This document shows, one piece after another, positions 8,421-31,120 of a DNA stretch of 32,459 nucleotides. Every line of letters starts with the position of its first letter. The first letter of the stretch is position 1. The position numbers were made by a program, and so were the translations under genes. This stretch comes from Desulfobacula sp. (GTDB lineage Bacteria > Desulfobacterota > Desulfobacteria > Desulfobacterales > Desulfobacteraceae). The notes below the pieces were generated by a model. That model did no database searches and was not told the origin of the DNA. It saw only the letters and a program-made list of their open reading frames with translations. The stretch covers positions 1 through 32,459 of the forward strand of contig JAAUSZ010000023.1 of the NCBI GenBank assembly GCA_012031875.1, written 5' to 3'.

Positions 8421-9071
8421 TTATGCAACGGCATTCAGAAGTGAAGCCAGGCTGCCGGAACTGGTGCTGTCTCCTGCATAAGTCAGGAGAAAGGATTGAA
8501 TGGCCTGCTGGTAAGCCTTTAGGGCCACGTCCTGAGTCACGGTCGCGCCGGTGGAACCAAGGCTCTGGCTCTGATCCGTCTGCCGGTGTTGGGTTTCACG
8601 GCCGGCTTCAATCTCTGCGGCCGTGAGAAACCCGTCCTGATCCGTATCAATTTCAGAAAAGATCTCATCGGGCAGGGCGGATTCATCCGCACTGATGAGT
8701 TCATCGCCGTCCGCGTCTTCTGTTTCAAAGATGGATTCGATACTCATGGGCTCCTTGCCCACACCGCGGCCTCCGCCCATACCGCCCATACCGCTGGCCG
8801 GGGGGCCTGCGGCCAGCATTTCCTCAAGCTCTTCCAGCGTCAGCGCGCCATCCGAATCCGTATCGGCATTGGAAAACATTTCCTCTGTCAGGCTCGTCTC
8901 TTCAATGGTGAGGGTCCCACTCTCATCCGCGTCCTCTTTTTCAATGATGGAGGCGGCGTCGGGAGGCGCGGGCGGGGTAAAACCGCCGCCCTGCGTACCC
9001 TGTGTTCCTGATGATGAATAGGAAGACGTGTAGTAGGCGGCATACGATTGTCCGATTCCCTGGATATTCAT
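8421..9071 (-). CDS. EF-hand calcium-binding protein, four loops
   Basis: A 216-aa acidic protein. The start is fixed at ATG 9071 by a strong AAGGAGA (9077-9083) six bases upstream; an in-frame ATG 13 codons earlier has no such site. Four EF-hand loops are readable: DADESGTLTIEE, DTDSDGALTLEE, DADGDELISADE and DTDQDGFLTAAE. They are arranged as two pairs separated by a Gly/Met/Pro linker (ASGMGGMGGGRGVG). All have Asp at loop position 1 and Glu at 12, so calcium binding is plausible. The N-terminus (MNIQGIGQSYAAYYTSSYSS) is a Ser/Tyr-rich segment and not a Sec signal. The C-terminus (AYQQAIQSFLLTYA, then a Ser/Leu-rich end) is amphipathic, which would fit non-classical secretion. Function is unknown; the C-terminal tail is not a classic RTX signal. 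Confidence 0.82.
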   Translation of the reverse strand: MNIQGIGQSYAAYYTSSYSSSGTQGTQGGGFTPPAPPDAASIIEKEDADESGTLTIEETSLTEEMFSNADTDSDGALTLEELEEMLAAGPPASGMGGMGGGRGVGKEPMSIESIFETEDADGDELISADESALPDEIFSEIDTDQDGFLTAAEIEAGRETQHRQTDQSQSLGSTGATVTQDVALKAYQQAIQSFLLTYAGDSTSSGSLASLLNAVA

Positions 9072-9134
9072 ATTGGTCTCCTTGTTAAAATTTAGGTTCA
9101 TGTGAATCAACAGTTTTGTGTCGGCTTTATTTTT

Positions 9135-10463: not shown

Positions 10464-10838
10464 ATGAAAAATGAAAATAATAAAGGGTTTCAGCGGCTGA
10501 TCAACGCCACCCGGTTCACCGGCAAAGGGATCAGGTCTGCCTGGTCCAATGAAGAGGCCTTCCGCCAGGAAGCCCTTGTCCTGATCCTTGTCATCCCGGC
10601 CGGGCTTTTCCTCGGAGAGACCTTTGTCCAGAAGGGATTGTTCATCTGTGTCTGGCTTCTGGTCATGATCATTGAACTGTTAAACTCAGCCCTGGAATCC
10701 GTGGTGGACCGGATCGGCTATGAAAAACACCCCCTGTCCGGCCAGGCCAAGGATATGGGGTCAGCCGCGGTATTCATCGGCATCTGCATGTCTTTTATTA
10801 TCTGGGGTTCCATCATCTGTGAACGCTTTGTTTTCTAA
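10464..10838 (+). CDS. dgkA: Diacylglycerol kinase, prokaryotic DgkA type
   Basis: A 124-aa integral membrane enzyme that phosphorylates diacylglycerol to phosphatidic acid. It has the three-helix layout and the family's key residues with a constant +2 offset from E. coli DgkA: Glu30 in NEEAFRQE (E. coli Glu28), and Glu71, Asn74 and Glu78 in IELLNSALESVVDRIG (E. coli Glu69, Asn72, Glu76). The C-terminal KDMGSAAVFIGI segment is also typical. The start is ATG 10464, in GGAAAGGAATG. It is the first gene of a plus-strand group; the next gene is a phosphoglycerol-transferase-like protein, whose reaction would release diacylglycerol. That pairing suggests DgkA recycles the lipid by-product, as it does for MdoB in E. 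coli. Confidence 0.95.
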   Translation: MKNENNKGFQRLINATRFTGKGIRSAWSNEEAFRQEALVLILVIPAGLFLGETFVQKGLFICVWLLVMIIELLNSALESVVDRIGYEKHPLSGQAKDMGSAAVFIGICMSFIIWGSIICERFVF

Positions 10839-10875
10839 ATTTTGCATCAAGGCTCAATGGATAAAGGGGGCCGTG

Positions 10876-12530
10876 GTGAACCGGTATGTGATGTTCATGG
10901 GGTTTTTGCTCCTCCTGACTTGGGCCATGAGCCTTATCGGCGGGATGCCGCCGCTTCGCCTGGCCTGGCGCCTGGAAATTCCCCTGATCCTGGGCCTGTA
11001 TTATTATTTTAACTCGGTCACCCGTCCTTCCAAATGGCAGCCGCTGGTGGCGGCCCTTCCCATTGTCCTGGTGTACGGGATTTTTGAAGCCAATTTCATG
11101 TCCCTGGGAAGGCTTCTGCGCATCATTGAGATCAAAGAATTTCCCGAACTGCTGAATGTTCTGCCGGTTTGGATCATCATTTCCACCGGGTTGATTTTCA
11201 GCCTGTCGTTTATTATTTTTGTAAAACATCTGCGATTCAACCGGATTCCCGGCATGGCCCTGGGGCTCCTGCCTTTCCTGTTCCTCGTGCTCATGGTGGA
11301 AGCAGCCCCGGATTATTTTCTCTTTGCCTTTGAAAGGGTTCAGAAACCGGTAACGGAATGGTCGGATATCCAGAGCGCGGAAGACAACGGCCGGATCTGG
11401 ATGATGCTCTATCATGAGGCCAAGCGGAATTCCAATCTTAAAAAGATAGCCGACTACCGGGATGACCCGGCCTTTATCAAGAAGACGGAAGATATTGTTT
11501 CCCGGATTCAGACCCTTGAAACCCCAAAAAATGTCCATCTCATTGTATTGGAAAGCTTTGTTGATCCCGAGCTGTTCAAGGGCCTGTCCTTTTCCCGGAA
11601 ACCCATGCACCCGGAATTTGAGAAAATTTTTAAAAAACAGGGCTCCCTGACCATTTCCCCGGTCTTCGGCGGCGGAACGGCCCAGGCCGAATTCGAGCTG
11701 CTCTGCGGGGTCCCGGCCTTAAGGAAAATGTCCGGGATGGAATTTGATGTATTTACCGGGAGACAGACCTACGCCCTGCCGGCCCTGCTTGCAAGGGCCG
11801 GGTATCATACCCTGGCCACCAATGCCTATAAACCGGATTTTTTCAATTCCATCAACGCCTACAGCGGCCTGGGATTTAAAAACAGCTATTACCCCAAGGA
11901 ATATGCCTCGGGCCGGGAGACCTATCTTTCCACGGGTGATGTTACCGGGGAAAAATACATGTTTGACGGGGATCTCTTAAAACAGAACCTGGCTTTTATC
12001 TCGGAGTGGAAGGCCTCAAATCCGGGAATCTCCCTTTTCAACTATGTCATCAGCATTTACGGCCATTTTCCCCATCAGATGAATGCCCAGAAACGGCCAA
12101 CGGTCATTGACGTCAAGGCGCCATCCGAGACGGGCATCTTGAAAACTGCATCAACCAGTTCTATTACCGGACCGAGGCCCTGGCCGCATTTATCAATGAC
12201 CTCAGGGTCCAGGACCCTGAAAGCCTGGTAATCTTCATTTCCGACCATCTTCCCTGGGTTTACGGGCCCGAAACCTATAAAAAACTGGGGTATGCCGCAG
12301 GGGCTCAGGGTTTCGAGCATATCAACCGGGTGTTCTTTTTTGAAGACGGCCGGGCTGTGCATTATGATAAGATCCACCATTATGATATCCCGGATCTCAT
12401 CCTGAATTATATTACGGGCAAAAGCCATTGCAGGGATTACCCATGCAGTTTCAAGGCGCCCAGGAAAGCCCTTGAAAAAAAAGAGTATGAAAACGCCTAT
12501 ATGACCATCATGGCCAATGCCATGAAATAA
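10876..12530 (+). CDS. LtaS/MdoB-like phosphoglycerol transferase, alkaline-phosphatase superfamily (frameshifted)
   Basis: A membrane enzyme predicted to move phosphoglycerol from phosphatidylglycerol to an extracytoplasmic acceptor. The start is taken as GTG 10876 behind AAAGGGGG (10863-10870); the frame is open further upstream but there it overlaps dgkA. Five membrane helices occupy about the first 170 residues. The sulfatase-like catalytic domain follows. The candidate Thr nucleophile is in GGGTAQAEFELLCG, a metal-binding His in SIYGHFPH, and the Asp-His pair in FISDHLPW. Around 12121 the frame breaks: upstream ends VIDVKAP, and the next frame continues GHLENCINQFYYRTEALAAF to the stop at 12528-12530. 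One missing base, possibly a C at 12121-12122, restores 551 residues. The spacing (37 bases after dgkA, 13 before the glycosidase-like gene) supports one operon. Confidence 0.82.
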
Positions 12531-14930: not shown

Positions 14931-15490
14931 TTGCTGTTTTCCGACTCCCATATTTTAATCACCGGTTTTATTGTTTTTTTTGCAAGAATCCTGGATGTTT
15001 CCATCGGTACGGTCAGAACCATTGTAACGGTCCAGGGACGGGCCGTGGCTGCTTTTTTTCTGGCCGTGCTGGAAATTCTGATCTGGATTTCCGTTGCCGG
15101 AACCGTCATCAGCCAGATCCATGACAGGCCTGAGCTGGCCGTATTCTATGCCTTTGGCTATGCCACCGGCAATGTCATCGGCATCCTGGTGGAGCGAAAG
15201 CTGGCCTTTGGCCTGGTGATTTTCAAGGTGATCACATCCAATTCCGGACTAGGGCTTGCCGATGCCATCAGAAAAAGGGCCAGCCCGTGACCGTGTTCAG
15301 GGGCGAGGGCATGAGCGGGCCTGTATCGGAACTCTATATGGCCTGCAAACGCAAGCATTTGAAATGGATCCTACCCCTGGTCACGCGCATGGACCCGAAA
15401 GCCTTTTATATTATTGAGCAGGCCCGGGATATGCGAAAGGGAATGATCCCGCTGACCGCCGCTTTAAAATGGACCGGAAAGGATAGATAA
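14931..15490 (+). CDS. UPF0316 / DUF2179 membrane protein (frameshifted)
   Basis: A 186-aa protein when the frame is restored. The start is TTG 14931 with GAGG six bases upstream. Three membrane helices fill the N-terminal half (FIVFFARILDVSIGTVRTIV, AFFLAVLEILIWISVAGTVI, VFYAFGYATGNVIGILVE). The C-terminal DUF2179-type domain then begins VIFKVITSNSGLGLADAIR. Five A's at 15272-15276 where six are expected shift the frame. The next frame continues KKGQPVTVFRGEGMSGPVSE to HLKWILPLVTRMDPKAFYII and TAA at 15488-15490. The family occurs widely, and its C-terminal domain resembles ligand-binding domains of YitT-type proteins; no biochemical role is established that I can name. The gene converges on the ABC transporter gene with only a 12-base gap and no clear terminator. 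Confidence 0.82.
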
Positions 15491-24798: not shown

Positions 24799-25320
24799 TT
24801 GGCAAAAGAAAAATTGAAATGCTATATTATCGCTGGGCCAAATGGGGCCGGAAAAACTACCTTCGCTGAAAAATTTCTTCCGGTAGAGGCAGAATGCCTG
24901 AACTTTTTAAATGCCGATCTGATTGCCAAAGGGATATCTCCCTTTAATCCGGAAGGTGTTGCTTTGGAAGCCGGAAAACTGTTTTTAAAAAGAATGAGTA
25001 CCATCGTTTCAAATAGAGAGTCCTTTGCATTTGAGACAACATTAAGCGATTTGAATTATATTGAAAAAATCAAAAATTGGAAAAAAAACGGTTATGAAGT
25101 AATTTTATATTTTCTCAGCCTTCCCAATGCAGAAATGGCTGTGAAGCGTGTTCATCTGAGAGTTGCCCAAGGCGGACACAATGTCCCCGTTGATATTATT
25201 GAGAGACGATATCAACGGGGCTGGAAAAATTTTCAAGATCACTATAAGAAACTGGTTGATACCTGGGTTATTTTCGATAATTCAGGAGAGATTCCATTGG
25301 TATTAGAGGAAAAAATATGA
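24799..25320 (+). CDS. Zeta-toxin-like P-loop kinase
   Basis: A 173-aa protein. The start is TTG 24799 with AAGGGT upstream; there is no in-frame ATG before the P-loop. The Walker A motif GPNGAGKTT is at 13-21. Other zeta-like features are Asp40 in NADLIAKGISPF, Glu79 in FAFETTLS, basic residues Arg117/Arg121 (VKRVHLRVAQGGHNVP) and the RRYQRGWKNF segment (136-145) typical of this branch, then VIFDNSG. Zeta-family enzymes phosphorylate UDP-activated amino sugars or other small molecules and poison cell-wall synthesis; whether this member is toxic is an inference. It overlaps the next small ORF by 4 bp (ATGA). The gene is clearly more AT-rich than the flanking genes and sits between 69-bp direct repeats, so it was acquired as a unit. 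Confidence 0.83.
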   Translation: MAKEKLKCYIIAGPNGAGKTTFAEKFLPVEAECLNFLNADLIAKGISPFNPEGVALEAGKLFLKRMSTIVSNRESFAFETTLSDLNYIEKIKNWKKNGYEVILYFLSLPNAEMAVKRVHLRVAQGGHNVPVDIIERRYQRGWKNFQDHYKKLVDTWVIFDNSGEIPLVLEEKI

Positions 25321-25577: not shown

Positions 25578-26333
25578 ACCGTCATCACCATGAATCTTAG
25601 GTTCGGACTGGCCGAGGACGGGGAAAACTCGTGGGTGAACAGGGAAGCCTTGTATGCCGAGGTGCTCAAACGCTATCCGGCAAGCTTTCTGGGCATCCAG
25701 GAGTCCAATCATTTCCAGACCCGGTTTTTAATGAAGAATCTGTGCGGCCATGGGGTCATCGGCCGGCACAATCCTGACAAGGAACGCTGGCAGAGCAATT
25801 TGATCTTTTACCACAAATCCTGGGCCTGCCTGAGGCACCGGCATCATTTCATCAGCGACACACCCCAGGCCGAATCCCGGCTGCCGGGCAGCAAATGGCC
25901 CCGGCAATGTGTCATCGGTCTTTTTGAAAAGGATTCCCGCAGGATCATTATGGTTAATACCCATTTTGATTTTGACGAAACCGTCCAGGAAAAAAGCGCC
26001 CAGTTGGTCATGGATTTTTTGTCCGGTTTTCCGCCGGACTGCCCCGTGGTCATCACTGGGGATTTTAATGCAAACCCCGGCGGAAAAGCAGATGCCGTGT
26101 TCAGGGGCCGGGGATTTTCCGAAGTCTTTGACGGGGCCCATGCCACCACCTTCCATCAATTCAGGGGGGAAGAGACCCTGGAACATATCGACTGGATCCT
26201 GTACCGCGGGCTGGAGCTCTGCCAAAGAAAGATCATCACGGATTCCTTTTCCGGCCGTTACCCGTCGGACCATTACCCGGTTCTGGGGCGGTTCCGCTTA
26301 TCAATTCCGGATCAGGCTATTTTTTCAAGCTGA
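25554..26333 (+). CDS. Endonuclease/exonuclease/phosphatase (EEP) family hydrolase
   Basis: A 259-aa protein of the metal-dependent EEP fold. The conserved sites are readable in order: Asn in TMNLRFG, Glu in GIQESNHFQ, NTHFDFD, GDFNANPGG (catalytic Asp/Asn), IDWILYR and the C-terminal Asp-His in SDHYPV. No signal peptide is present, so it is probably cytoplasmic. Substrates of the family range from DNA to phospholipids and sugar phosphates, and none can be chosen here. The start at ATG 25554 is embedded in the right direct repeat; ATG 25590 is a possible alternative. The 3' end overlaps the convergent formate dehydrogenase gene by 22 bp. Confidence 0.87.
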   Translation: MHPRENEFTVITMNLRFGLAEDGENSWVNREALYAEVLKRYPASFLGIQESNHFQTRFLMKNLCGHGVIGRHNPDKERWQSNLIFYHKSWACLRHRHHFISDTPQAESRLPGSKWPRQCVIGLFEKDSRRIIMVNTHFDFDETVQEKSAQLVMDFLSGFPPDCPVVITGDFNANPGGKADAVFRGRGFSEVFDGAHATTFHQFRGEETLEHIDWILYRGLELCQRKIITDSFSGRYPSDHYPVLGRFRLSIPDQAIFSS

Positions 26334-29071
26334 ACCGCGCAGGCCTTGTATTCCGCGGTCAGGGTAAAGGGATCAAGGGCCGCATGGGTGAGCCAGTTGG
26401 CATTGCCTTCCGTAAAATGAAAGGCCATCCAGACCATTCCCGCCGGCACTTCCGGCGTGACATGGGCGGTGACGCAGACCTCCCCCCGCCGGGATTTTAC
26501 CCGGATGCGCTCTCCCTGAAGAATACCGAGTTGTGATGCATCAGCCTGGGAAATATCGGCCCGTTCTTCTCCCAAAAGGTCATTGAGCCCGTCGCACCGG
26601 CCGGTCTGGGTCCGGGTGTGGTAATGGTAGAGCCTTCTTCCCGTGCTGAGGACAAAGGGGTATTGGGCATCGGGCACCTCGGCCGGGGGAGTCCACTGGG
26701 CCGGCATGAAAACGCCCTTTCCGTGGGTGAAATTTCCGTCCTTGTGCAGGAAGGCTGTGCCGGGATGGTCCGGGGTGGGGCAGGGCCATTGAAGGCCGTC
26801 CTGTTCTATGCGGCCGTATTTGATGCCGCCCAGGGCCGGGGCCAGGGCGCTGATTTCATTGTCCCACAATTCCTGGCCGCTGGAGGAGGGCCAGTCATGG
26901 CCGAAGCGCTTTGCAATTTCTTTGAAGATCCACCAGTTGGGTCTGGCCTGGCCCGGGGCCGGGCTAGCCTTGCGGACCCGGCTTACCCGCCGTTCGCTGT
27001 TGGTGAAGGTGCCGTTGTTTTCGCTCCAGGCCGCCGCCGGCAACACCACATGGGCGAACCGGGTGGTTTCCGTGAGAAAGAGATCCTGGCAGACGATGAA
27101 TTCCGCCGAAGAAAGTTCCTGGGCCACCTTGTTCATATCCGGTTCCGTGTTGGCCAGGTTTTCGCCGAAGATATAAAATCCCCGGACCTTGCCGTTGGTC
27201 AGGCCGTGCATCATCTGGGGGATCATAAGGCCGGGCTTGTCCGGAAGATCCGTCACCTGCCAGGCCTTTTCAAATTTAGTCTTTGCAACCAGGTCATCCA
27301 CCCTCTGGTAGCCGGGGTATACATTGGGAAGAGCCCCCATGTCACATGCGCCCTGGACATTGTTCTGGCCCCTGAGGGGATTCACCCCGCCCAGTTCCAT
27401 GCCCAGGTTGCCGAGAAGCATTTGAAGATTGGCAACGGTCATGACATTGTTTTTCCCGCAGGTGTGCTCGGTAATGCCCAGGGTATAACAGGCCATGGCC
27501 GGTTTGACCGAGGCCAGGAGCCGGGCCGTTTGGATAATGGTGTCTTCGTCCACCCCGGAGATTTCCGCGGCCCGCTTGGGCGGGTATTCGGCAACGGTTT
27601 TTTCAAGAGCCTCGAACCCGGTGCATTTGTTCAGGGCAAAATCCTTGTCATAGAGATCTTCTTTGATCAGCACATGCATGATCCCGTTGAGAAGGGCGAT
27701 ATCGCTGCCGACCTTTAACTGGAGATGGATGTCGGCAAAATCCGCGAGCCTGTGCTTCCTGGGGTCCGCCACGATGAGCCGGGCCCCGTTCCGCATCGCA
27801 TTTTTCAAAAAGGTGGCGGCCACGGGATGGGCCTCGGTCATATTGGACCCGATGACCAGAAAGAGGTTTGCCTTGGCAAATTCCGAAAAGGAATTGGTCA
27901 TGGCGCCTGAACCGAAAGTGGTCGCCAGCCCGGCGACAGTCGGGGCATGTCACGTTCGGGCGCAGTGATCAATATTATTGGTTTTGAACACGGCCCTGAA
28001 CAATTTCTGCATCTGGTAGGAGTCTTCGTTGATGCTTCGGGCGCAGGAAACCCCGGCCAGGGCGTCGGGGCCGCTTTCCCGGATGATGGTCTTGAATTTT
28101 TGGGCCACCAGGTCCAGGGCCTCATCCCAGGAGGCTTCCCTGAATTCTCCGTTTTCTTTGATCAAAGGGCTTGTCAGCCGCTCTTCCGAATAAATGAAAT
28201 CATAGCCGAACCGGCCCTTGACGCAGAGCCTGCCTTTGTTAGGAGAGCCGTCTTCCACCCCCGTGACTTTGAGGATTTTTCCGTCCTTGACGTGGAGCAA
28301 TTGCTGGCAGCCCACCCCGCAATAGGGGCAGGTGGTCCGGATCTGCTCCATTTCGTTGGCCAGGGCTTTGCCGAAACTTTTCCGGTCAAACAGGGCGCCC
28401 ACGGGACAGGCCTGGACACATTCCCCGCAATGGGTGCAGGCCTCGTAATCCGCCGCCGGGTACCAGCCTTCCGGGTGGTCGGCCCGGCGGCCCCAGGGCG
28501 GGGTAATGGCCAGGTTGACCTGGACGTCGTTGCAGGCCTGGACACACCGGCCGCAGAGGATGCACCGGGAAAAATCCCTTACAATGATGGGGGTGGCGTC
28601 ATCCAGGGGATGGCCTTCCCAGCTCAGATGGTCCTGGTTTACATGCACATCGTATTCAATGGCCAGGTCCTGGAGCCGGCAGTCACCGTAGGCCGGGCAA
28701 AGGCCGCCGTGCCAGGGCTGTTCCATGATGCCCTTCTGGTTCGAATTCCAGGAATCGGCCGAGGATTGCATGACCAGGCAGTTATGGGCGCCGGAGGCCA
28801 CCAGCATCTCGATGATGGTTTTTCTGGCTTCATGGACCCTGGGGCTGCGGGTCATGATCTTCATGCCTTCACCGGCCGGGGTCTCGCAGGCGGGCAAAAG
28901 TTCCTCGGCCCCGTCCACTTCCACCACACAGATCCGGCACTGGCCCGTGGGCGTACAGCCGGACAGGTGGCACAGGGTCGGGATATGGATATTGTTTTTC
29001 CGGGCCACTTCCAGAATGGTCATGCCCGGCTGGAATTCCAGGGGGTTATTATTAATGCTGAGAATCGGCAT
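26312..29071 (-). CDS. fdhA: Selenocysteine formate dehydrogenase catalytic subunit with NuoG-like N-terminus (in-frame TGA = Sec374)
   Basis: A 919-aa protein, read as one gene through TGA 27950-27952. The start is ATG 29071 with AAAGGA six bases upstream; an ATG five codons earlier lacks a site. The N-terminus is NuoG-like: a [2Fe-2S] site (Cys34, 45, 48, 62), a His/Cys region with Cys98, Cys125 and Cys131, two [4Fe-4S] motifs (from Cys170 and Cys212), then the molybdoenzyme cluster CPYCGVGC with Cys283. The reading DHCART-Sec-HAPTVAGLATTF is the catalytic loop of formate dehydrogenases, with the metal-ligating residue at the TGA; upstream and downstream parts share one frame. The C-terminal half continues as a molybdopterin-binding oxidoreductase (LFLVIGSNMTEAHP, GNLGMELGGVNPLRGQNNVQ). 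No signal peptide, so it is cytoplasmic. It oxidises formate or reduces CO2 with the diaphorase-like partner encoded 35 bases upstream. Confidence 0.95.
27921..27952 (-). promoter_or_regulatory. Bacterial SECIS-like element for selenocysteine insertion
   Basis: Directly after the TGA (27952-27950, minus strand) the RNA can form a perfect 6-bp stem GUCGCC / GGCGAC with the 5-base loop GGGCU. The loop begins about 19 bases past the TGA, within the spacing used by bacterial SelB-binding hairpins, and has G at its first positions as in E. coli fdhF. The element lies inside the coding sequence. Selenocysteine machinery (selA, selB, selC) is not in this window. Confidence 0.75.
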
Positions 29072-29106
29072 TTGAATTCCTTTCATCGTAAATCGTCCGC
29101 CCTCCC

Positions 29107-31020
29107 TTAGAGGGCAGCCATAAGAATACGGTAACAGCGCAGGCAGCGGTTGGCCTCCTGTCTGGCCCGGGCCGGGGATAATCCGGATTCCACCTCGTCA
29201 AAACTCTGAACCCGGGTTTCGGGCGCCAGAACCGGAGCTTCCTCTTGCCGGGTCACCCCTGGGTAAGGCAGGGGCGGGTCGGTTTCAAACAGGGCCGGAT
29301 TTTCAGTCAGGGTTTCCATCAGGTCTTCAGGCCCGGGTGTGCAATCCCCGGTGTCCAGGTAACGGACAATGGATTTGGCCCCATTCTTTCCGGCGGCCAG
29401 GGCCCGGATCAGGATATCCGGTCCGGTGGCGCAGTCTCCACCGCCAAAAATATGGGGCAGGTTGGTCTGGCCCGTGGTTTTATCCGCCACCAGGGTGTTC
29501 CATTCACTGACCACGGCCTGGGGCAGGAATTGGTCCACAGCGCAGGCCTGGCCGATGGCCGGGATAACGGCGTCGCAGGCCATGACAAATTCCGAGCCTT
29601 CAATGGGCACGGGCCGCCGCCGGCCGCTTTTATCCGGTTCCCCCAGTTCCATTCTCAGGCATTTGAGACCCGAGACTTTTCCGTCGGCATCGGCCTGGAC
29701 CTCGATGGGGGCCATGAGCATGTGGAAATGTACGCCTTCTTCCCGGGCTTCCTTGATTTCCAGGGCATCGGCCGGCATCTCGGCTTCCGTGCGGCGGTAG
29801 ATGAGGTTCACATCGGTGAAACCCAATCGCCGGGCGGTTCTGACGCAGTCCATGGCCACGTTGCCGCCGCCGACCACCGCCACCCGGTTGCCGTTGAGGG
29901 GTTTTTCCCCCCGGGCGGCCCGGGCCAGGAAATCCACACCGGGCATGAAATTCTCATACCCCTGGTCCTCCCCCTTGCAGTTCATGCGGGTGGGACCCGG
30001 GGCGCCGGCCCCTACGAACACGGCCTTATATCCCTGTCCGGCCAGGTCTTCCAGGGTGATGTCCCGGCCGATTTTGGTATTATATCGGATGACAGCTCCC
30101 AGGGCTTCGACTCTGGCGGTCTCGTGGGCGATGACCGACCTGGGAAGGCGGTAGGAGGGAATCCCATAGGCCGCCATGCCGCCCGGGCCTTCCTGGGCCT
30201 CGAAAATGGTGGCTTTTATGCCTTGGCGTCCCAGGTAATAGGCGCAGGACAGACCGGCCGGGCCAGCACCCACAATGGCCACCTTTTCCGGCCGCGGGGG
30301 CGGCGTCAAGGGCTTTGGCGTCAGTTTTCCTTCCATTTCCCGGTCCGCCAGGAAGCGTTTCAATCCCTTGATGGCCAAAGCCTCATCCAGGTTGCCCGCC
30401 GGCACCGGGTTTCACAGGGCCGCACGCAGACCCGGCCGATGGTGCCGGGCATGGGGCAGTCCTCCCTCACCCGGTCCATGGCTTCGGACCAGCGGCCCAT
30501 GCGGATGTTTTCCAGGTAAAAGGGGATATCCACATGGGAGGGGCAGGCGGCCACGCAGGGGGCGGTGACCAGGGAGGTATAGGCTTGACCCTCTTCCGCC
30601 ATTTTTGTACCCTTGGCGGCTGCCTCAAAATTCTCGCTAAAGGCTTCCATCAGGTCCAGGACCGGGCGGGCCAGGGTCCGGCCGATATCGCACCGGGCGG
30701 TTTGGCTGATCTGGACGGCCAGAAATTTGAGGCGGGTCAGGTCCTCGGCCTTGCCCCGGCCTTGTGTCAGGCCTTTGGCCAGGCCCGCCATCTGCACGGT
30801 GCCCAGGCGGCAGGGGGTGCATTGGCCGCAGGATTCATCTTTGGCCTTTTCCAGATAGGCGGCCAGCAGAGCCACGGCATCCACGGTCCTATCCCAGACT
30901 TTGACGCCGTTCCATCCCATGATGGCCCCTGGGCGGCCCCAGCCATTTTTCCATATCCAGAACGGACAGATCCGGGTCCCGGCTCGTTCCGTTCCATGTA
31001 TCGATTTCCGGATGACGCAT
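29107..31020 (-). CDS. GltD-type FAD/NAD(P) oxidoreductase fused to a NuoF iron-sulfur fragment (two indels)
   Basis: 637 residues when corrected. The start is ATG 31020 with AAAGGGGG upstream (MRHPEIDTWNGTSRDPDLSV, then MEKWLGRPGAIMGWNGV). The next part is only the C-terminal NuoF-like cluster domain: DESCGQCTPCRLGT and a fourth Cys in ARCDIG. The FMN/NADH domain of NuoF is absent. Then follows a GltD-type module: cysteines in CVAACPSHVDIP and GRVCVRPCETRC, an FAD Gly motif in VAIVGAGPAGLSCAYYLG, a second Gly motif in VAVVGGGNVAMDC, and a C-terminal CLRCYRI. Two frame breaks are inferred. One base is extra near 30937-30940 (C4), and one is missing at 30399-30400, restoring CRAGNLDEALAIKG. 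It precedes fdhA by 35 bases on one transcript and probably passes formate electrons to NAD(P) or ferredoxin. Confidence 0.85.
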
Positions 31021-31120
31021 ATAAGCCCCCTTTGCATGAATGGATCAAAACTCATCCATTATATCCGTATGCCCGCTTCCCGTCCAGGCAGGGCGTCGAT
31101 TTAATGTTTATGGTTATGCC

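Follow-up and report, generated by a model that had tools for sequence, protein, structure and literature searches.

An in-frame TGA in a bacterial gene may be a genuine stop, a sequencing error or the codon for selenocysteine (Sec), and this question is raised by a formate dehydrogenase gene in a stretch of 32,459 nucleotides of a Desulfobacula sp. genome (contig JAAUSZ010000023.1), hereafter called the window. The initial annotation had proposed that one gene runs across the TGA, with the codon placed in a CART-x-HAP loop. From the sequence data discussed below, it appears practically certain that this is a selenoprotein gene of the normal bacterial kind, in which UGA 27952-27950 would be recoded to Sec via SelB and a hairpin, probably in a Desulfobacula-like sulfate reducer. 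The reading frame, homology, codon conservation, Sec machinery and hairpin covariation were all computed. The features concerned, for which the initial annotation gave no strand, are on the minus strand and are listed in Table 1.

Table 1. Coordinates in the window of the fdhA locus, with the basis of each assignment.
Feature	Position	Strand	Basis
fdhA, predicted Sec-containing formate dehydrogenase alpha subunit	26312..29086	-	924 residues with TGA(379) read as Sec; frame, TIGR01591, Pfam
In-frame TGA, predicted selenocysteine codon, UHAP motif	27950..27952	-	frame and codon in relatives
Predicted SECIS hairpin	27921..27937	-	third-base pairs, covariation, covariance model R1
Probable beta subunit with NADH_4Fe-4S, Fer4_20 and GltD-like FAD/NAD(P) domains	29107..31058	-	PF10589, PF14691 and PF07992 over cut-off

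The fdhA frame starts at ATG 29086 and is interrupted only once, by TGA 27952-27950 at the position of residue 379 of 924. Apart from this codon, the frame contains no TGA except the one that terminates the gene (26314-26312), and the matches of fdhA to relatives in a scan of genome contigs stop at residues 921-925. When the interrupting TGA is read as a residue, a single continuous frame is obtained with the sequence CART-U-HAPTVAGLATTFGSGAMTNSF and U at 379, in agreement with what had been proposed. A mechanical ORF list splits the gene at the TGA into one ORF of 378 amino acids at 27950..29086 (-), which ends in ...NNIDHCART, and another of 529 amino acids at 26312..27901 (-), which starts with MTNSFSEF...; both the splitting and the two pairs of coordinates had been predicted exactly. 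Without recoding, the gene thus falls apart in two, and a key enzyme of formate/CO2 metabolism is missed in the annotation.

The whole FdhA protein reached 805.1 bits with TIGR01591, which is above the curated cut-off of 666.25. The Pfam domains Fer2_4, Fer4, Molybdop_Fe4S4 (PF04879), Molybdopterin (PF00384) and Molydop_binding (PF01568) were all found over cut-off, the order being N-terminal 2Fe-2S and 4Fe-4S domains followed by the Fe4S4, molybdopterin and dinucleotide-binding domains. PF04879, PF00384 and PF01568 are all located in one frame that spans the TGA. The initial annotation had referred to FdhF/FdhN-type enzymes as using Sec at this position. Its placement among the Sec-containing formate dehydrogenases stands, but its class is that of TIGR01591 with N-terminal Fe-S domains and not FDH-N, as the score with TIGR01553 (FDH-N/FdnG type) was 298.6 bits against a cut-off of 814.2. 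UHxP has been listed as the Sec motif of formate dehydrogenase alpha subunits (PMC13188914), and U-H-A-P is found at residues 379-382.

Relatives were collected by scanning genome contigs; 260 were found and the best 80 were kept, so that more distant Cys forms are perhaps under-counted. Among these best 80 of 260, the top relative is a Desulfobacula MAG with 94% identity, and the others belong mainly to the Desulfobacteraceae, the Syntrophaceae and other Deltaproteobacteria. At the homologous position, 77 of these 80 relatives have TGA, and the other three, i.e., L040, L044, and L073, have TGC. These three are Cys-type versions of the enzyme with a continuous frame at this position, extending from stop to stop over 980, 950, and 947 codons, respectively. 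The motif around the codon was found in 79 of the 80 relatives (76 with TGA), and the codon is either TGA or TGC in every one of them; the remaining relative, L091, was read separately and has TGA as well. The relatives with TGA include complete genomes, e.g., that of Desulfosarcina widdelii (L030). Within the window's own family, 48 of 59 genomes contain a match with an E value of at most 1e-100. All 20 aligned rows from this family that show at least 66% identity and cover the codon, among them that of the window itself, carry exactly one TGA. One more row, with 75% identity, begins past the codon, and the rows at 45-50% identity include some without a stop, Cys forms among them. Since 77 of 80 relatives share the TGA and 20 close rows each carry a single one, a base error is very unlikely.

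The absence of selB or selC from the genome had been named initially as an argument that would count against Sec. In the window's assembly (4.95 Mb in 357 contigs, 87.4% complete, 5.99% contamination), the genes for tRNA-Sec (75.7 bits, cut-off 47), SelA (606 bits, cut-off 268), SelB (356 bits, cut-off 242), and SelD (311 bits for the larger piece, cut-off 125) were all found over cut-off, and ARAGORN called the same tRNA as Sec with anticodon TCA. For comparison, among 14 control genomes, tRNA-Sec was over cut-off in five, selA in one, selB in two and selD in two. All four genes are located on contigs other than the window's, and their origin from the same organism therefore rests on binning, at the level of contamination given above. 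The selD gene (L018/L019, contig C260) contains itself an in-frame TGA, in the motif GAGUASK, and thus encodes a Sec-type SelD; further on, it is frame-broken in this assembly, either by error or by damage.

The initial annotation also pointed to a perfect 6-bp stem with a GGGCU loop at SelB spacing. This hairpin is present, but its evidential weight is less than it looks. On the minus strand, it is composed of the stem half GTCGCC (27937-27932), the loop GGGCT (27931-27927) and the stem half GGCGAC (27926-27921), the UGA being separated by 12 nt from the stem and by 18 nt from the loop. According to a published consensus, bacterial SECIS elements (bSECIS) have a loop of 3-9 nt, an upper stem of 4-16 bp, a G in the first two loop positions and a UGA-loop distance of 16-37 nt (PMC13188914). 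The loop GGGCU of 5 nt, the stem of 6 bp and the distance of 18 nt all fall within these limits. However, four of the six stem pairs are fixed, because the first and second codon bases of V-A-G-L-A-T force them. Furthermore, a hairpin of equal grade, i.e., with 6 bp or more in a perfect stem, a loop of 3-9 nt, a G in the first two places and SelB spacing, is found at 36 of the 1210 TGA triplets on both strands of the window. The predicted energy with the hairpin is -14.0 kcal/mol for 44 nt and -17.6 kcal/mol for 52 nt, and the best fold of a 71-nt stretch is a different structure. As these folding energies are unremarkable (z scores of -0.58, -0.42, and -0.72, with 54, 68, and 48 of 200 shuffles folding equally well or better), stability was dropped as evidence. 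An Rfam scan of the window at gathering scores gave no match. By itself, the hairpin is weak evidence; what lifts it beyond chance is its conservation and covariation. The informative pairs are the two formed by third codon bases, i.e., between Val and the second Ala and between the first Ala and Leu.

For the analysis of the stem, 83 distinct sequences were used, 80 with TGA and three with TGC, the window's own included; 15 loci that are identical over 60 nt, L105 and L106 (by hand) and loci without the codon motif were left out. All six pairs are standard in 75 of the 80 distinct TGA sequences. None of the 80 deviates from Watson-Crick pairing at either third-base pair, whilst the codon use of these genes predicts such pairing in 28.2 and 31.4 sequences for the single pairs and in 11.5 for both. 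The pair types vary on both sides, with CG, TA, and GC at one pair and CG, AT, and GC at the other. In the region from -60 to +90 nt around the codon, two or more Watson-Crick types occur in 1849 column pairs; apart from these two, none is perfect, and the next-best reaches 74 of 80. When paralogs were added, Watson-Crick bases were present at both third-base pairs in all 106 distinct TGA genes, one of the two pairs occurring in four types and the other in three. In contrast, both pairs are found in two of seven Cys genes, or in three if G-U is allowed, this contrast set consisting of seven genes only; the Val-Ala pair is lost in the Cys-type genes L044 and L073 and kept in L040. The counts of 106 and seven comprise matches to CARx-[U/C/S]-[H/Q]-xx-[T/S/V]-VAGLA, one per distinct 48 nt. 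Outside this pattern, and not counted, are L091, L113, L156, L157, and L158; the last three have no in-frame stop, and the codon motif was not found in them. L138, L141, and L171, which have their first 36 nt in common, have no rows of their own in these counts.

Since the relatives are not independent, these counts are not counts of events; simple inheritance would not explain the occurrence of four and three pair types in the sequences compared. In a subset of 29 sequences, whose figures are flattered because they were picked for stem variety, 13 two-sided changes were found, as compared to a mean of 2.4 after shuffling (reached in 0 of 500 shuffles), and three of five covariation measures stood out (0 of 500 shuffles each). 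The other two measures, i.e., the number of pairs with a two-sided change and the number of pair types, did not stand out in this subset, as they were reached by 204 and 92 of 500 shuffles, respectively. Taken together, the third-base contrast between Sec and Cys genes and the fact that these are the sole perfect columns identify the element as a normal bacterial SECIS. With two third-base pairs preserved in 106 of 106 Sec genes, these genes offer a clean and testable case of synonymous-site selection for Sec insertion. A more specific proposal, which we regard as doubtful, is that the SECIS in these formate dehydrogenase genes consists of a 6-bp helix free of bulges and a GGNCU loop placed exactly 18 nt past UGA, under very strong synonymous-site selection that is relaxed once Sec is replaced by Cys, and that their SelB may read the helix by a code different from the bulged-U code of E. 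coli.

A covariance model of the element (R1) gave four matches in the whole genome at E 4.6e-7 or better, the next one being at E 1.58 (150 of 2361 first-look candidates were scored). The four matches are this gene and formate dehydrogenase paralogs on contigs C204, C81, and C141, each at an in-frame TGA; as the paralogs are homologous, the matches are not independent of protein homology. In these paralogs (L105, L104, and L103, respectively), all six stem pairs are kept, with one G-U. R1 missed three other formate dehydrogenase-like rows with an in-frame TGA, on C183, C245, and C16. In the one on C183 (L113), the stem pairs are, as judged by eye, not kept, and a different hairpin would be needed.

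How do other explanations of the TGA compare with these data? The codon could be a sequencing or assembly error, or the stop of a pseudogene, in a Cys-type formate dehydrogenase, and both the fragmented state of the assembly (357 contigs, 87.4% complete) and the frame changes in the beta-type neighbor and in selD would fit such an error. However, TGA recurs in 77 of the best 80 of 260 relatives, complete genomes among them, both third-base pairs are perfect in the 106 TGA genes as compared to two of seven Cys genes, and the remainder of the 924 codons is open, which together make this explanation very improbable. Alternatively, the codon might be read through without SelB, by suppression or in a reassigned code, with Trp or another residue being inserted. 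The open frame is all that speaks for such a mechanism, whilst the full Sec gene set is present, fdhA itself terminates at TGA, all relatives in which the motif was read have either TGA or TGC here, and conservation of the hairpin is accompanied by compensatory changes; hence, we give it hardly any credence.

It is similarly hard to believe that the two ORFs encode two separate proteins, the second one starting from ATG 27901 (Met 396). A mechanical ORF search does yield two ORFs, and the alpha subunit of a Moorella enzyme has been described as two genes (PMC13040438), but the break falls within the molybdopterin domain (PF00384, residues 303-727), the 16 codons from the TGA to the second ATG are largely conserved at the protein level (HAPTVAGLATTFGSGA), and the three TGC relatives have a continuous frame.

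On the preferred reading, i.e., Sec insertion via SelB, a ribosome arriving at UGA 27952-27950 would encounter SelB with Sec-tRNA(Sec) bound to the hairpin, the GGGCU loop being located 18 nt downstream. Sec would then be delivered, and translation would go on until the true stop codon at 26312 is reached. This would yield the alpha subunit of a formate dehydrogenase that depends on tungsten or molybdenum, with Sec379 acting as a ligand of the metal and joining in the interconversion of formate and CO2. Electrons would pass via the Fe-S clusters of FdhA to a partner, the likeliest one here being the NAD(P)H oxidoreductase-like subunit encoded next to it. The recoding in vivo, the cytoplasmic location, the metal, the catalytic role of Sec (from known formate dehydrogenases), the direction of the reaction and NADP(H) as the electron partner are what we infer. 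A reverse Wood-Ljungdahl pathway proposed for Deltaproteobacteria related to Desulfobacula is described as including a Sec-containing formate dehydrogenase (PMC8318568), and FdhA likely has a role in such a pathway here too.

The beta-type gene has the same orientation as fdhA and precedes it; the NCBIfam matches of its protein were all below cut-off. The gene is split into ORFs at 30360-31055 and 29107-30405, with a change of frame near 30390-30411. In L022, a relative with 92% identical DNA over this stretch, it is one uninterrupted ORF of 647 codons, and the break in the window therefore points to assembly error or decay. Among the best 80 of 260 relatives, six have a beta-type homolog immediately before fdhA in the same orientation (L022, L023, L025, L039, L040, and L027, where it is cut by the contig end), and two have it elsewhere in the locus, i.e., on the other strand in L064 and downstream in L075. 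It was not found in the other 72 loci, 13 of which hold less than 2 kb upstream. A shared beta-type neighbor as a general rule was rejected, since it is directly upstream in only six of the 80. On the 3' side of fdhA, L028 and L030 encode aldehyde-dehydrogenase-like proteins, with scores below the cut-offs of the families.

Elsewhere in the window, a small ORF at 24799-25320 (+) encodes a Zeta-toxin-like kinase domain (PF06414, 49.7 bits, cut-off 22.3), and a small protein with EF hands (PF13499 and PF00036) is encoded at 8421-9110 (-). The ORFs at 14931-15290 (+), which contains DUF5698, and at 10720-12231 (+) have ends that, by eye, are apparently cut by frame changes, which suggests an error-rich assembly. 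In a plasmid search, 1530 records were obtained, all with less than 60% identity.

The SECIS stem of E. coli FdhF contains a bulged U, whereas the six pairs are continuous here. FdhF (FDH-H) of E. coli is a Sec-type formate dehydrogenase with its SECIS just past the UGA (PMC4513850). Its structure (PDB 1aa6) matches residues 246-924 of FdhA, whilst residues 1-245 are without counterpart. The closest solved structure by sequence is PDB 7qv7 (674 bits), FdhF of the hydrogen-dependent CO2 reductase, which is, however, a subunit of another complex; other formate dehydrogenases also match. SfrB is a protein of the GltD-like domain type. The NADP-dependent formate dehydrogenase of Moorella thermoacetica is described as a tungsten-selenium-iron enzyme with SfrB2 as its beta subunit (PMC13040438). 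Like here, its alpha subunit is found beside a GltD-like beta subunit, and the Pfam domains of the neighbor of fdhA are those of an SfrB/GltD-type protein; unlike there, the frame of the beta gene is broken in the window's assembly, the likeness being one of domains and description. The Moorella alpha subunit is described as two genes, sfrA2 and fdhF3 (PMC13040438, 2026); perhaps, and this is a guess, they are split at the same UGA. In Desulfococcus multivorans, a cytoplasmic formate dehydrogenase alpha subunit with a UGA followed by a SECIS is reported to be spread over two locus tags, dmul_C16320/30 (PMC5109826). This organism is another species, but it is likewise a sulfate reducer of the Desulfobacteraceae, as the family is named in that paper, and, as far as the published description goes, its UGA-SECIS gene in two tags resembles the one found here. 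Formate dehydrogenase alpha subunits have been described as the most widely distributed family of bacterial selenoproteins (PMC13188914), and the gene in the window, which the initial annotation read correctly, is an ordinary, already known kind of Sec-containing formate dehydrogenase.
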